A program made the position numbers and the translations under genes. A DNA stretch of 64,000 bases from Symbiodinium sp. CCMP2592. Its lineage: Eukaryota; Sar; Dinophyceae; Suessiales; Symbiodiniaceae. Below, piece after piece: positions 999 to 35,412 of this stretch; the stretch's first letter is position 1, and every line of letters begins with the position of its first letter. Below the pieces are notes generated by a model that was not told the DNA's origin, made no database searches, and saw only the letters and a program-made list of their open reading frames with translations. Location: NCBI GenBank assembly GCA_905221615.1, contig CAJNDT010006015.1, positions 291,922 through 355,921 of the forward strand, in the 5' to 3' direction.

Positions 999-3900
999 TA
1001 AGACATTACGGGCCCCATATTTTCCAGTCAAAATGCTGTTTTCTAAGAGTTTTCATTACAAAAACTTACAATCGTCATAATTTGCATACTAGTGGTTTTC
1101 AAGCTTACTTAACCCTGTTGCTCTTGATGCCTGATATGGGAGGTACTTTTCCAATCAGCATGGGATGCACTTGTGACTACCTTTCATTGTGGAGTCTCAT
1201 GAAGACTATCCGATAAATCAATGCCACTTCAATCTTGTGGTTGTTCTTTGTGTCTCATAGTATAATCTTGCAGATAAATGAGATACAATGCGTCTGCGAA
1301 ACCGTGCATTTCTCCACCCTTGAATGATGTACAAGACCGGTCAATCTATATAACTTTTGCATATCAACGTAAAGAATCGCTTACATATCCCACCGGTTTT
1401 CGCAGGCCCCATCATGTGCATGGTAACATATGATTTTGGATATAGACGTCCAGCATATACTGTAGCATGACAAGTTGAGTTTGGCATCATACAGGCAGGT
1501 TGCTCAAACAGTTCCCATCGTCTCAAGCTGTATACATGCAGGCGATCAACTGGATCGTGTTACCGGATCCATTTGCATATGTACATATATACATATATGT
1601 ACATAGATGTCTTTGCTACATTCAGTTTCGATACCGTTCTTCGTATGAATGCTAGCTTGTTTAGTGCAACCTCCTTCAAATGTGTATTTACTGTTTGCGA
1701 TTATTGTTGCATTGGTTGTCCTTGTTTCGGAGCTCCCAGTCCAATAATTTGTCCAGTATTTGGAGCTGTGTATGCGGAATTGTGTATTTCAATTGCAACA
1801 GCTTCTCACAGAAGCCAACCCAGAAAACTGAAAACCTACGATCTTCGAAGACAATCATCGCATGGATGTTGCTGTATACATCCTGACAGCTACAATGCTG
1901 GCTTATCCAGATTAGTGATCATTGCGGCTGAAGCCCACGAGCCCCCAAAGGATAAGGATATAATTTAGTTAATATACTTTCCAAGGAGATGGTGCTTTGC
2001 TATCATTATTGTATATGCAGACATATGGAGATCTACCTGCAATATTAATCATTTTCGCTGTCTTGTTGCTCATACCATCTAGTCATAGGTCGACTGCCGT
2101 GAAAACACGTTATTTGCACATGCACACACAAACATACACCGACACGCACATACGATTGTCATCAGCTGTAAACAATACCGCTTGTTGTATCTATGCTGCA
2201 GGCAATGCACCTGTATGCCGCAACCATTCTAATATGGTCTTGTTAAAGCCCATGACGCACTTCATCGTGTGTCTTATGGATATCTCCGTAAACTATATCC
2301 TGTTACCCAAGCAAAAGTATAATACCTATACTATGCCTAAAACCAACTTTCTAATATGTGACATGATCAAGAAGTCAAGTATCTCTTGTGGTGGAAGTAA
2401 ACATGGCAGATTACATTGGCAGCTGCATGCCAGTTTTGGCAAGAGTAATGGAGCCGTCAAAATGAGACACCCAATCGGCAGTTGAACAGGATATTCGCCG
2501 CATTCCTTCAATGTAAAAGGCATGTTATGTGTTGAATATGACCATATCAACATAGAGCACCAGGAAATCTCTTCAACATATCGTTATGATATTGAGCCAT
2601 CCGTATAGATCATCGCAGTAGGTGTCCTTATAAGATGCCCGCATCGTTCGGGCTTCCCCCTTTACGCCTTCCGGCCGCGCGGGCAAGCGGGATTGCACCA
2701 CATATTGGTTAAACCTCTCGGTAGACCTTTCTAAAAGCCCGGAAACTTATTCTCACACATAAACCCAATCTCCCATGAAGTTACAACAGTCACAGCTAGG
2801 TATGAATAGGGCGCAAGATGCAGGCAGCATCTCATGACACATATCTTCTCTATGAGATTTGACTTAGATGTCCTTGTGCATCCCGTGAGCTTGCCAAGCT
2901 CGTATGGCATCTCCCTAGCACCTCATGCTACATGTTTACGAGTGTGTTACGCCATATCATTCTATGATGCGCATGGTTCACGTGAAGATTGATACTTCAC
3001 CATGACGTGCTCATGAGATATATTGTTTCCATATTTAGCCAGTTTTAGTATAGTGATATTCAGATTCCTGCGAGTAGCCGATCATGATCACAGGAACATA
3101 AACCAATAAGGATTTCCACTTGTAAACTCCCCGACAGAGCCCACCATGTTGCTCGAACATCGCACAAGTGGAATATTCAAACTCCCGTTTTCATGCACCC
3201 ATAACATAGTCGGATTCGGATCCCTTACATCGCAACCTGTCAATGAAAGGCGAAGACAGTGTTTCTTGTATATGTTATCGAGGAGATTGCTCATACATGT
3301 ATCTGACATCCGATATATATACCGACCATATGTCCTCGCATATGCTACCACATCATATGCGACGTCAAACATTGTTGTTATCGCTTGACTACTACAGACC
3401 CTTCAACTGGTTGTCCACCTAGCATTGCTCAGGCAGTGGTTGTGTCGTGAGTTCGCATCCGTCGAATGTATGTTAATGTAAGGTCTCCTCGTCATATGAT
3501 GTCATCAGTCATAAATAGTTTATCATCTTTGTGAGATGTAATCTCAGATATCGACTTTTCTATACACAGTAAGTGTCTGAAGTCTTTTATAGATTCTATA
3601 GATGTTTATCTGGTTAGTTTGTAATCTTATTGATCTTAATATTCGGCATAGAGTATCTACTCATTTGTAGTGAGGCTTGGATGGGCTAAGGACACCAGGT
3701 TTAAATCATGTGGCTCTTGGTTGGTGTCCGCTCCCGCAGTATGGCGCACCATGGCGCTGGCTGTCGCTTGCCTTGCTGTCCCCGCGGGAGGGGGGGGGGG
3801 GGTGGCAGCCACCAAAAAAAAAAAAAATCTGGCGGGGGGGGGCAGCGCCAAAAAAAAAAAAAAAGATTTTGGATTTTGGAATTTTTTTTTTGTTTTTGGC

Positions 3901-4225: not shown

Positions 4226-4492
4226 TTTCTGAATATATAATATATCATGTATCATATATAATGCATAATACGTAACATGCAACACAAGATATACAATATA
4301 AAATGCACAGTATAAAATATACAACATATCAAAAATACTAAATAATATGCAGTATATATTCTATAATGTTTAGTATGTAGTATATATAAAATAACATAGA
4401 ATACATGATAAATAGTATTTAATAAATATTATTATAACATATAAATTCTGAATGTAAAATACATAGTATATTACATATAATATGTTAATATG

Positions 4493-23833: not shown

Positions 23834-24400
23834 CGCACTCTCTCAACTTCAACCCGCCTCTGTATTATACAAACTACCTCTATATATATATATATATATA
23901 TATATACAAATGTATATGTAGCCTTAGCGCATACTGGTACGTGTCCAGATTTCTGCACGAGGATTCCCTAATTAGATGCATGCCAAAGGGCCGCGCCCGA
24001 ATCGGACACAACGCCCCAAATGCGAGAAATGCGCGATATGTGTGTGTGTGTGTGTGGATATATATATATATACATATTACACATACACGTATTAACGCAT
24101 ACACAAAAGACCTCATACAGAGACACACACGAATGCGCACGCACGCACGCAGACAAATGCTCCTCAAGCCTGTCTGCATCTGGTACCATGGTCTGGCATG
24201 TTTGAGAACCCTGCGGTGTTCTGCAACACCGAAGCCAGCAGGGGCTGCATTTCATGCATATCAGCGGAGGAGACTGCATGCAGACCCCAACGCACAAGAC
24301 CAGTTGGGCGAGACACCCTTGCACTACGCAGCCCTCGCTGGGCAAAGTGCCGCCGCATCCCTGCTCCTCGAAGCCAAGGCAAGATTTCACGAGCTCAACA
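23120..24400 (+). CDS. Ankyrin-repeat protein (partial, at least three exons)
   Basis: The first exon frame (23120-23554) contains AIYDQIDRRFQRWGAGPSVD and a DDDED acidic stretch. After a TTGCAG acceptor at about 23560, the sequence GAHSETALHIAAAAGSMEAM gives one ankyrin repeat (the T-A-L-H-x-A-A-x-x-G core). A second repeat, DQLGETPLHYAALAGQSAAA, lies at about 24300-24370. The intron between them holds the CT and TA microsatellites. Ankyrin repeats mediate protein binding, and nothing here fixes the partner. The SHWWG-type gene lies just upstream, and fusion of the two cannot be excluded. The 3' end is not resolved. Confidence 0.55.
23754..23828. repeat. (CT)n microsatellite, about 37 units
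   Basis: A nearly pure TC/CT run inside the presumed intron between two ankyrin exons. It is followed by a TA tract at about 23881-23906 and, downstream, by TG and TA tracts at about 24037-24072. The arginine/glutamate- and serine/leucine-rich ORFs here are translations of the repeats. Confidence 0.9.
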
Positions 24401-24555
24401 GGACACTACTGCAGTACTATCCAGAACTGATTCGAATGCAGTGGGTCTGTCAGAGTATCGCCGTTTCCAGGCCAACATTCTTTGCGAAAATTCTCTTGCC
24501 CAGGACTGCTCAGATGCAAGTACCACTGCTGAACCCGCTGTTCCTCGTAGAGTAG

Positions 24556-31746: not shown

Positions 31747-31966
31747 GCAAGCGCTCAATTCGCTGGAAGAGACCAAGCCATTGCCAAACACGAGAGGAAC
31801 CTTAGCCTTTGCTCTTCGGCAGGCGACAGTTGCCCCACCATCCGCCTTCGAAGTGCAGAAGAGCAGATGGCCAGCAAGCTCGGAGCCTTTGCCTTGGCTT
31901 AGAAGAAGCAGTTTCCGGTGTTTTCATGGTCACAGGTTGCAGAGTCCCACTTGCTCGTGCTTGGCC

Positions 31967-31976
31967 TTGGCTCAAG
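31967..31976 (+). other. Spliced-leader relic upstream of Sm-F copy 1
   Basis: TTGGCTCAAG is identical to the last ten bases of the 22-nt dinoflagellate spliced leader. It lies 32 bp before the ATG on the coding strand. The upstream bases (GTGCTTGGCC) no longer match the leader. A genomic relic of this kind is known in dinoflagellates and is read as a sign that a trans-spliced mRNA was once reverse-transcribed back into the genome. A possible AG acceptor for current trans-splicing lies at 31991-31993. Confidence 0.6.
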
Positions 31977-32008
31977 ACCCCAGTCTCTTAGCAGCTGTGT
32001 CTGGCACC

Positions 32009-32920
32009 ATGGCGACCGTGCCAGTTAACCCGAAGCCCTTCCTGAATGACCTTACGGGCATCCTGGATAAACTTTGCTGTGACCAAGTGTCCGCCGGCAC
32101 ACGTCTGCTCTGTTACTTAGGCAAGCTAGTGCTTTGCAAGCTGAAATGGGGCGCCTTGGACCGCGTTTCAATGCACAATGCCTTCGACGTTGCACGTGCA
32201 CGGAACGATGTTTTGAAGCGGGATGTTTTCCAACCAGACTTGGTGAAGCAAGCTCTTGTGGAGGCAGCACAAATGCCAGTGCAATCTCCGAATTTCATGA
32301 GCCCTATCAGTCAGCTGAATGCTGCCAGCAGAAGCCATGCGCACACCGCGAAGTAAAGCTTCCAAAGTAGGGTTCGAATGAAACGGCGGCTTGTGTTCTG
32401 ACGAGATTGGACTCGAGGTATGGAGTACAAAGGCTCCCTGAAATCCATTGACCCTTACATGAACCTCCAGCTGCTCAACACAGAGGCGTCGGCAGTCATG
32501 CTGTTTGGGCTGTTGACATCCGGAACTCATTGTTGCGGCGGCGGTCACCACTTGCGTTCCTGCAGCAGAGACGTTCTTCGTCGAGGTAAGATGCACTGAG
32601 TATGCACCGCTTGGGTGCTCATAGTATCATGGCCCAGACTCCTACATCTCTTTACTTGGACAAACTGTGAATCTGAAGGGCCCTGAGCTTTGCAGGAGTG
32701 GGTTGACGGCAGCTTCCGGGGCAACCTTGGGGAGGTCTTCATTCGCTGCAACAACGTTCTGCCGCTGTACGAAGAGTTGTAGAAATTGCAGACATGTGTT
32801 CATGCTCACGGTTCCTTGCAGCTCCGCAGGCTGCAGTTATCTTTCGACACGGCAGCTGACAGAGTGTGCATGCCGAGGTACATCCGTGGAATGGCCGATG
32901 AGGAGTCAGATATGGACTGA
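32009..32920 (+). CDS. SNRPF: Small nuclear ribonucleoprotein F (Sm-F), copy 1
   Basis: One of the seven Sm proteins that form the ring on U1, U2, U4 and U5 snRNAs in the spliceosome. Five exons: 32009-32057, 32121-32150, 32418-32485, 32696-32760 and 32878-32920. Joined, they give 84 residues, against 86 in human. It starts MATVPVNPKPFLNDLTG, then KLKWGMEYKGSL, the Sm1 core DPYMNLQLLNTEEWVDG, and the Sm2 core GNLGEVFIRCNNVLYIRG, with an acidic tail ending ESDMD. The four introns (63, 267, 210 and 117 bp) all have GC donors and AG|G acceptors. The exon 4 donor was placed after GTTCT so that NNVLYIRG is kept; three bases later would add a proline. The gene starts 32 bp after a spliced-leader relic, and a second copy begins 412 bp after its stop. 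Confidence 0.93.
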
Positions 32921-33290
32921 GCAGAGTAGCCAGATCTGATATAACTGGGCAAGCGAGGCAGAGATTGCTGGCTCGACATTGCCTCGCAAGTGTTTGTCCC
33001 GATGCAGTCGATGGTGAATGCAGGATATGCAAGGCTTTCGCAGCAATCAGCTCAGGCTACTTTACAGCCATAACTTGTACACCGCGCCTTGACATTCATG
33101 ATGCGCTCACCTCTCAGAGTCTCAGAGCAAGCGTGAGAAGCACTGCTGAACGTGCATGGCCCAACAGCCAGTCTGAGAGGCTCGGAGTTTCAGGCAGTTT
33201 TGCTGCAAGCGCAAAAAAGAGCAGAGCCTCCAGCTGCGTTCGCCGGTTGCTCTTGGCATGTGGTCCATTATGATTTGCTCGTGCTTGGCC

Positions 33291-33300
33291 TTGGCTCAAG
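33291..33300 (+). other. Spliced-leader relic upstream of Sm-F copy 2
   Basis: The same TTGGCTCAAG as at 31967, duplicated together with the gene, again 32 bp before the ATG. Confidence 0.6.
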
Positions 33301-33332
33301 ACCCCAGTCTCTTAGCAGCTGTGTCTGGCACC

Positions 33333-34234
33333 ATGGCGACCGTGCCAGTTAACCCGAAGCCCTTCCTGAATGACCTTACGGGCATCCTGGATAAACTTTG
33401 CTGTGACCAAGTGTCCGCCGGCACACGTCTGCTCTGTTACTTAGGCAAGCTAGTGCTTTGCAAGCTGAAATGGGGCGCCTTGGACCGCGTTTCAATGCAC
33501 AATGCCTTCGACGTTGCACGTGCACGGAACGATGTTTTGAAGCGGGATGTTTTCCAACCAGACTTGGTGAAGCAAGCTCTTGTGGAGGCAGCACAAATGC
33601 CAGTGCAATCTCCGAATTTCATGAGCCCTATCAGTCAGCTGAATGCTGCCAGCAGAAGCCATGCGCACACCGCGAAGTAAAGCTTCCAAAGTAGGGTTCG
33701 AATGAAACGGCGGCTTGTGTTCTGACGAGATTGGACTTGAGGTATGGAGTACAAAGGCTCCCTGAAATCCATTGACCCTTACATGAACCTCCAGCTGCTC
33801 AACACAGAGGCGTCGGCAGTCATGCTGTTTGGGCTGTTGACATCCGGAACTCATTGTTGCGGCGGCGGTCACCACTTGCGTTCCTGCAGCAGAGACGTTC
33901 TTCGTCGAGGTAAGATGCACTGAGTATGCACCGCTTGGGTGCTCATAGTATCATGGCCCAGACTCCTACATCTCTTTACTTGGACAAACTGTGAATCTGA
34001 GCTTTGCAGGAGTGGGTTGACGGCAGCTTCCGGGGCAACCTTGGGGAGGTCTTCATTCGCTGCAACAACGTTCTGCCGCTGTACGAAGAGTTGTAGAAAT
34101 TGCAGACATGTGTTCATGCTCACGGTTCCTTGCAGCTCCGCAGGCTGCAGTTATCTTTCGACACGGCAGCTGACAGAGTGTGCATGCCGAGGTACATCCG
34201 TGGAATGGCCGATGAGGAGTCAGATATGGACTGA
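33333..34234 (+). CDS. SNRPF: Small nuclear ribonucleoprotein F (Sm-F), copy 2
   Basis: Tandem duplicate of the preceding gene, with exons 33333-33381, 33445-33474, 33742-33809, 34010-34074 and 34192-34234. Every exon base is the same as in copy 1 as far as I can check, so the 84-residue product is identical. The intron before exon 4 is 10 bp shorter, having lost AAGGGCCCTG or an equivalent. The exon 3 acceptor context reads TTGAG instead of CTCGAG. Both copies share the same 5' flank including the leader relic, so both could be expressed. Nothing suggests that either is a pseudogene. Confidence 0.93.
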
Positions 34235-34891
34235 GCAGAGTAGCCAGATCTGATATAACTGGGCAAGCGAGGCAGAGATTGCTGGCTCGACATTGCCTCG
34301 CAAGTGTTTGTCCCGATGCAGTCGATGGTGAATGCAGGATATGCAAGGCTTTCGCAGCAACCAGCTCAGGCTACTTTACAGCCATAACTTGTACACCGCG
34401 CCTTGACATTCATGATGCGCTCACCTCTCAGAGTCTCAGAGCAAGCGTGAGAAGCACTGCTGAACGTGCATGGCCCAACAGCCAGTCTGAGAGGCTCGGA
34501 GTTTCAGGCAGTTTTGCTGCAAGCGCAAAAAAGAGCAGGAGCTGTCAGCCATGTGGGCATTAGCAAAAGCACTGGTGGAGATTGCAAGCGCACGCGTCAC
34601 GTGCCCAGTTGATACCGCCGTGCCACTACTTCCAGATGGGATGTTGCACGAAAGGTGCAGCTTGCAAGCCTGGCTCTCGGTGAATGGTACTCGTAAGTCG
34701 GGTCAAGTCTGCATGGACTCAAAAATCCAACACATCCAAGAAAAGGTGCTGGGGTCGGGCCCATGACTGAGGTTTTCTCACAGTCTTTCTGCCCCACGAT
34801 CGAGACAGGCCTGTTCTTGTCAGCGGAGACATTCACTTGAGCCCCTCAGCACAAGTAGCGGAGAAGCTAATGTTCGCAAAACTGCTTGCAG

Positions 34892-35412
34892 GAAGAAACT
34901 TTGCGCATGGAAGCCCTGCGACTACAGGCCAGGCGGTCTGTGTGAAGCCTGGTTCGAACTTCGGGAAGCTCTGGGCAGGTGGAGTATTACCTCAGTGACG
35001 AGAACTTGTTGACCGACAGTTTCTTCCAGGCCGGAGCCGAAGCGAGGCGATTTCGGATTTCGCCTCTTTGTGGGGGGTCCTCCTTGCCTCTGAGCCTCTT
35101 TCCCAAGGACTTGATCCACAGTGACGGAGGATGGATCGCGGTCGAAAGCTTTCTAGGCCACGGCACACTCCGAAGCAGAGTGACACGAGTTGAGCGCAGC
35201 AGTCGACCAACGGCCAAAACTTGCCTCCAGGCTGCCCGCGAATCCAACAGCTGCGGGCCACTGCAACGGAGGTGCCCGGGAATCTGTGCATTTGAAGCGA
35301 GCGGGCCTGCCCCGCCTGCTCCTGCGACTTTTTTTGCGCACTGGCTCAGCTCATTGCGGCACTGCGGTGGTCCAAGCAGCTCCGGCTGCGGGAGTGGCCA
35401 CAAGGAAAGGAG
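34892..35412 (+). CDS. La-motif RNA-binding protein (LARP/La-like), partial
   Basis: Exons 34892-34927, 34979-35029, 35108-35156, 35231-35271 and 35350-about 35412 join in phase into a complete La motif. The joined sequence reads LRLQ then VEYYLSDENLLTDSFFQ, DLIHSDGGWIAVESFLG, CPRIQQLRATATE, then LIAALRWSKQLRLRE. The pattern Q-V/I-E-Y-Y-L/F-S/G-D-x-N-L, followed by D-G-W-V/I, is the hallmark of La and LARP proteins, whose winged-helix La motif binds RNA 3' ends. Donors are GC except GT at 35272. The last exon begins with C rather than G, so that join is the weakest. No RRM or other C-terminal domain was found, so La versus LARP4/6/7 cannot be decided. Upstream frames at 34551-34766 may hold the N-terminus. 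Confidence 0.75.

Follow-up and report, generated by a model that had tools for sequence, protein, structure and literature searches.

The stretch of DNA analysed here, called the window throughout, covers 64,000 nucleotides (nt) of the dinoflagellate Symbiodinium sp. CCMP2592 and contains no Ns. It holds two same-strand copies of one unit, which differ at three places overall in their alignment, each copy being a gene for the core splicing protein Sm-F. In both of them the coding strand shows, 32 nt ahead of the ATG, a ten-base word, TTGGCTCAAG, that equals the final 10 nt of the dinoflagellate spliced leader (DinoSL); the word has no other exact occurrence on either strand of the window. Our subject is what these ten bases are doing in front of a gene that has four introns. 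The features of the locus are as follows; exons and introns are those of the gene model.

31951..33224, + strand: copy 1 of the duplicated Sm-F unit, 1274 bp (alignment, repeat detection, genome DNA search)
31967..31976, + strand: TTGGCTCAAG of copy 1, equal to the final 10 nt of the spliced leader, with CAAG as possible trans-splice acceptor and the ATG 32 nt on
32009..32057, + strand: copy 1, exon 1, ATG at 32009 (also protein match)
32058..32120, + strand: copy 1, intron 1, GC-AG, 63 nt, phase 1
32121..32150, + strand: copy 1, exon 2
32151..32417, + strand: copy 1, intron 2, GC-AG, 267 nt, phase 1, with the substitution at 32414 (also alignment)
32418..32485, + strand: copy 1, exon 3
32486..32695, + strand: copy 1, intron 3, GC-AG, 210 nt, phase 0, with the indel at 32673-32682 (also alignment)
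32696..32760, + strand: copy 1, exon 4
32761..32877, + strand: copy 1, intron 4, GC-AG, 117 nt, phase 2
32878..32920, + strand: copy 1, exon 5, including the stop codon
33213..33219, + strand: AAAAAAG of copy 1 (motif reading)
33225..33274, + strand: 50-bp spacer between the copies
33275..34538, + strand: copy 2 of the duplicated unit, 1264 bp (alignment, genome DNA search)
33291..33300, + strand: TTGGCTCAAG of copy 2, with the ATG 32 nt on
33333..33381, + strand: copy 2, exon 1
33445..33474, + strand: copy 2, exon 2
33742..33809, + strand: copy 2, exon 3
34010..34074, + strand: copy 2, exon 4
34192..34234, + strand: copy 2, exon 5, including the stop codon
34527..34533, + strand: AAAAAAG of copy 2

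To judge by its sequence, the encoded protein is Sm-F (SNRPF) and not LSm6: it has an LSM domain (PF01423, 76 bits) and matches human Sm-F with an E-value of 2e-36, against only 8.5e-17 for the best LSm6. Spliced at the four introns, whose sites were placed by homology and sequence alone, both copies give the same 84-amino-acid protein from a coding sequence (CDS) of 255 nt. All four introns are GC-AG in both copies, with a G after the AG, and their phases are 1, 1, 0 and 2; GC or GA donors are reported for 25-74% of Symbiodiniaceae introns (PMC11453091). A first-pass annotation of this stretch had described the Sm-F tandem with its coordinates, its four introns and the 32-nt distance to the ATG, all of which proved exact in the alignment, the gene model and the word search.

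The three differences between the copies are all non-coding. One substitution lies in intron 2 (32414/33738) and the other in the 3' flank (33047/34361), and the single 10-bp indel (32673-32682, intron 3) sits, by reading, at a CTGA repeat, which is what slippage is expected to give. The unit begins 16 nt before TTGGCTCAAG and ends 5 nt past AAAAAAG, the sole AAAA[GC] from the stop codon to the unit end, which resembles the poly(A) site motif AAAAG/C of Amphidinium carterae and K. veneficum (PMC2488372). Both copies have in common the 16 nt preceding TTGGCTCAAG and the GAGCAG following the A-run. In a copy born of an mRNA with leader and poly(A) tail, both ends should be different; neither copy is thus a retrocopy of the other with a leader tag. 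Duplication of DNA gave rise to the pair, when TTGGCTCAAG was already present, and this event is independent of any relict. The two substitutions and the 10-bp indel, already counted in the first-pass annotation, agree with its view of a recent duplication; either the duplication is recent, or conversion keeps the copies alike.

The usual marks of a retrogene are lacking as well. There is no classical poly(A) tail, the A-run being internal to the unit in both copies, and no direct repeat that would be a target-site duplication was seen at the copy ends, which were inspected by eye, with no program run. A classical retrogene is free of the introns that its parent has; Sm-F has four, and no intronless Sm-F, nor any further Sm-F copy, was found by protein and DNA searches of the 1.098-Gb assembly that holds the window (5383 contigs). 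The protein search, which works exon by exon and scores only the best candidates, gave five matches, namely four exons of the tandem pair and the paralogue LSm6; when copy 1 with its edges was the query at the DNA level, the tandem pair alone was recovered. No Sm-F was found in viral contigs.

In their sequence anatomy, the Sm-F copies have the appearance of a small tandem array of dinoflagellate type, with the same strand, a short spacer, an AAAAG/C motif and an upstream AG acceptor; the low intron density of such arrays is absent, since four introns interrupt a CDS of 255 nt. The similarity of the 50-bp spacer to either flank is not above that of shuffles, and none is significant elsewhere in the window; an older duplication, which spacer-flank homology would have suggested, was dropped on that account. 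Other Sm genes of the genome are also duplicated: SmG and SmD1 are each present as a tandem pair, SmD1 with a third locus in addition, and SmD2 and SmB at two loci each.

An LSM-domain family search of the genome gave 16 exon matches, and we examined fourteen other Sm/LSm loci. Their names (LSm6, LSm4, LSm7, SmG and so on) were given by comparison with human Sm/LSm proteins. We looked for GCTCAAG in as much as 3 kb, and for identity to the leader in as much as 1.5 kb (638 nt at LSm6), ahead of the first exon recognised. Start codons were read at three of the fourteen loci (LSm6, LSm4 and LSm7); for SmD1, SmG, SmD2, SmB, LSm5 and LSm8 the first exon was not located, and the search ran from the first one recognised. 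Leader remains close to the start were found at two loci. LSm6 is identical to the leader at 16 of 21 positions, ending 54 nt before the ATG, where the best of 127,960 positions in the window reaches 15; an 11-nt suffix of the leader stops 104 nt short of the LSm4 ATG (13/21 in all). LSm6 has two introns and LSm4 at least three, and the best-kept part of the leader is the 3' end in Sm-F, LSm6 and LSm4 alike. An identity of 14/21, which antisense and reversed controls attain too, is seen at three more loci, 468, 991 and 1099 nt away. GCTCAAG is otherwise remote, with four sense occurrences 1192-2735 nt away, LSm4 accounting for one, and three on the opposite strand. Sm-F and LSm6 together gave six introns, every one of them GC-AG.

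We looked in addition at seven proteasome alpha loci, five of them above the family cut-off, so that leader remains are present at 3 of 22 loci, the Sm-F pair being counted once. Remains this common, on genes that bear introns, make a relict at Sm-F credible, and a relict is there a somewhat better reading than chance. The first-pass annotation had arrived at a leader relict from the ten bases; the match alone is no proof of it, and support comes from the remains at LSm6 and LSm4.

On balance, we lean towards the following reading: this is the sole genomic Sm-F found, it bears introns and was duplicated once as DNA, and TTGGCTCAAG is the leftover of a leader relict that has decayed from its 5' end. 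We infer the leader origin of the ten bases, the role of CAAG as trans-splice acceptor and the route by which leader sequence reached a gene that kept its introns. The 5' part of the relict would have been lost or would have decayed, leaving the ten 3' bases; the transcript would be trimmed at CAAG and given a fresh leader, resulting in an mRNA with a single leader, and cis-splicing would take out the four GC-AG introns. With CAAG as acceptor, the ten bases would be removed as part of the outron, and only DNA would reveal the relict. A test for double leaders would therefore probably fail to find any at a genuine relict too, whose own CAAG is a plausible acceptor; the leader is said to favour its own persistence by carrying AG acceptor sites (PMC3229502). 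The run of AG-free nt before CAAG is 30 in copy 1, 65 in copy 2 and 63 in LSm4, and alternative candidate AGs near Sm-F lie at 31983, 31991 and 31994. As for the introns, the first-pass annotation had assumed that a gene with a relict should lack them. That premise is at odds with published work, intron-bearing DinoSL relict genes having already been reported (PMC6050394, PMC12014239), and a relict together with introns on one gene is for this reason a mild puzzle and no paradox.

One has to set against this reading a series of results. Beyond the ten bases, only 1 of the 11 other leader positions matches, which makes 11/21 overall, and 903 of the 127,960 window positions, both Sm-F sites counted, reach at least that identity. 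A gapped extension of the match is equalled by 42% of random 16-mers and was dropped as no better than these. The published relict criterion (a BLASTn match to the leader, word size 9, default limits, 500 nt upstream; PMC8045281), re-created here with 40,000 simulated flanks, calls our 15- and 21-nt controls and does not call the Sm-F flanks, whose E-values are 73 (megablast) and 88 (blastn) for a limit of 10; under the laxer limit of blastn-short they are listed at E 104, alongside 1615 of the 40,000 random flanks. In the looser sense of a leader-like sequence close before the start codon, both copies do qualify, with their exact 10-nt suffix. Across the genome there are 1206 cases (595 + 611) of the ten-base word in which none of the five leader positions ahead of it matches, near the 848-1119 expected on both strands from composition models fitted to 296,222 genome bases (for the reversed pattern, 209 observed and 230-402 expected); most isolated words of this kind are thus due to chance, with a modest excess possible. 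No relict close to the start was found at 12 of the 14 other Sm/LSm loci, whose starts are mostly not located, and one of the loci without a relict is LSm7, where the start codon was read. The seven proteasome alpha loci have none either: the longest leader suffix within 700 nt is 8 nt long and 633 nt away, and no position in that distance reaches 14/21. The AG of the LSm6 relict is preceded by just 10 AG-free nt. Lastly, the Sm-F 5' flank has none of the GA, telomere-like or TATG repeats that we describe below for intact relict words (LSm6 and LSm4 are unclassified in this respect).

Much of this would suit another explanation, namely a chance match in the flank of a vertically inherited, intron-rich Sm-F that was duplicated in tandem in the ordinary way. 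This option, allowed for in the first-pass annotation, stays viable after Markov models, simulation and genome counts, and we hold it to be possible, if clearly the less probable account. It gains from the fact that leader similarity stops at ten bases and from a genome tally so close to the expectation from composition. Markov models of orders 1-4 built on the window give about 2e-6 per site, that is, 0.23-0.30 exact copies for the two strands of the window, or 0.9-1.2 in 10,000 for 50 nt and 1.8-2.3 in 10,000 for 100 nt; the order-0 model gives about half of this, and 10 of 40,000 simulated flanks had the word in their last 100 nt. The 4 in 100,000 per gene proposed at first was somewhat low. 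At about 2 in 10,000 per 100-nt flank, the word is unexpected at any given gene, and yet several genes per genome should carry it by chance. Against chance stand the per-gene probability, which is still low, the leader remains at 2 of the 14 other Sm/LSm loci, and the position of TTGGCTCAAG at a plausible acceptor.

An unlikely variant is that relicts are often patched onto the 5' ends of resident, intron-bearing genes, the gene as a whole never being retroposed. A short stretch of trans-spliced RNA or cDNA would serve, at the trans-splice site, as a template for repair or conversion, and the 3' end of the patch, GGCTCAAG, would be kept since it is functional as an acceptor; Sm-F, LSm6 and LSm4 would then be three patched genes. 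Retroposition of the whole gene from a pre-mRNA that had been trans-spliced and not yet cis-spliced, with later loss of the parent, we regard as somewhat more doubtful. A published account of intron-bearing relict genes (PMC6050394) speaks for it, as does the absence of a parent copy in the searches made, a situation shared with most published retrogenes; it would nevertheless need all four introns to have been left unspliced and an identical history for LSm6 and LSm4, and neither the A-run nor the flanks bear signs of a retroposed end.

Retroposition of a mature mRNA followed by the gain of four introns, which the first-pass annotation had offered as a way out, appears improbable, and the intron repeat tests brought no positive evidence for it. 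High introner-driven gain is reported in dinoflagellates (PMC11453091), but introns 1, 3 and 4 have no terminal inverted repeats above shuffles and those of intron 2 are weak (42 of 1000 shuffles reach them); the longest direct repeats near the splice sites, for which no control was run, measure 4-6 nt, and no intron is similar to another or to the rest of the window. Introners as makers of these introns were rejected, their signatures being absent in this comparison within the window. Another dinoflagellate, A. carterae, has six introns in SmE, for which a leader-primed cDNA is entered in a table (PMC2488372). Introns of Sm/LSm genes are often deeply conserved, with one position common to Sm-F and LSm6 in other eukaryotes (PMC2650416); by reading, none of the four Sm-F positions coincides with the two of LSm6 in this genome, LSm6 being the sole comparison.

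It is slightly less probable again that CTCAAG-like words are simply the trans-splice acceptor consensus of the species. The AG-free run ahead of CAAG in Sm-F and LSm4 would fit, but sense GCTCAAG is missing upstream, over the up to 3 kb searched, at 9 of the 14 other Sm/LSm loci, and no GCTCAAG lies close to the matched exon at the seven proteasome loci; remains at 3 of 22 loci do not make a universal consensus, and published work reports no simple one beyond AG (PMC2488372). Finally, the very high identity of the copies could suggest an assembly artefact, which is most improbable given the unique 50-bp spacer, a window without Ns, the three differences between the copies and the duplication of other Sm genes in the genome.

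Relict words are plentiful in this genome. With at most one mismatch, CCATTTTGGCTCAAG occurs at 1131 + 1048 places, against 29 + 47 for the reversed pattern, and these places take in repeats and perhaps leader genes, beyond gene starts; such abundance is what a dinoflagellate genome should show. We classified 81 sites of the exact 15-nt word from 60 + 20 fetched stretches (one with sites on both strands), which were the first places listed and not a random sample, 9 of the first 61 belonging to one repeat family. Simple repeats stand within 45-60 nt upstream at 43 of the 81 intact words (GA at 24, telomere-like CCCTAAA at 16, TATG-type at 3), when the same classifier finds repeats at 4 of 81 positions slightly downstream and at 1804 of 30,000 random genome positions; the telomere-like repeats are in the CCCTAAA orientation 16 times and in the TTTAGGG orientation 4 times. 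This enrichment is a stronger observation than the Sm-F match, to which it stands aside, and may be a clue to how leader-tagged cDNAs join the genome. Nine relict sites have a common sequence after the leader, preceded in eight of them by GA repeats, and perhaps form a leader-headed repeat family, a short retroelement.

The leader was also sought outside the genome. In viral contigs its pattern occurs in 37 stretches, with a fuller leader on just one contig (22% GC), where copies lie at 2746-2760 and 2893-2907 (minus strand), 147 nt apart; the second precedes a more GC-rich stretch resembling a host transcript start, and the contig is possibly chimeric. Among contigs of prokaryote genomes, the leader 21-mer has two matches, both filed under Dehalococcoidia: the full 21 nt are found at 4334-4354 (minus strand) in one, followed by GTAC as in a leader RNA gene, and at 32-52 in the other. 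These contigs are probably dinoflagellate contamination.

Around the Sm-F pair, an exon at 34976-35029 (+ strand), about 440 bp past copy 2, matches the La domain (E 4.5e-6, under the curated cut-off) and is probably part of a gene for a La-related protein. An ankyrin-repeat match lies in an open frame at window positions 24277-24417 (+ strand). A tRNA scan and an Rfam scan at gathering scores gave no matches.

Leader relicts serve to count dinoflagellate retrogenes, put in the literature at 20-25% of genes. A relict on an apparently sole, intron-bearing core splicing gene, with two siblings of the same kind, raises the question of whether a relict implies retroposition at all. Should relicts be added to resident genes, retrogene counts would be overstated and would need revision; should the Sm-F match be chance, the case would be a lesson in judging short matches.

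The closest known systems are the DinoSL relict genes, also called recycled genes or retrogenes, reportedly described by Slamovits and Keeling in 2008 and by Song et al. in 2017. Like them, Sm-F has a leader-like sequence closely upstream of its start in a genome rich in relict words; unlike those that have been called as such, it retains only ten bases, under our re-created calling limit, and is a DNA-level pair for which no parent was found. Genes with relicts are reported at about 22-25% (PMC6050394, PMC12014239, PMC3229502), and in Polarella full-length transcripts those with one relict amount to only 0.68% and 2.31% (PMC7245778). The peridinin-chlorophyll protein and actin genes of A. carterae have a sequence like the leader either precisely where trans-splicing occurs or just ahead of the start (PMC2488372); they share with Sm-F a genomic leader-like motif at the actual or possible point of leader addition, tandem copies with short spacers and an AAAAG-type poly(A) site, and differ from it by a match of 21/22 bases in one case and in that such highly expressed genes are mostly intron-poor. 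The psbO gene of A. carterae, a published exception to low intron density, is, like Sm-F, tandem and intron-rich together, whereas its copy number is high and a relict is not stated in the portions of the paper at hand (PMC2488372). Nearest of all in the same genome, LSm6 and LSm4 are, as is Sm-F, intron-bearing genes of the Sm family with leader remains before the start, from which they differ by a longer leader similarity and by having been seen at one locus each.

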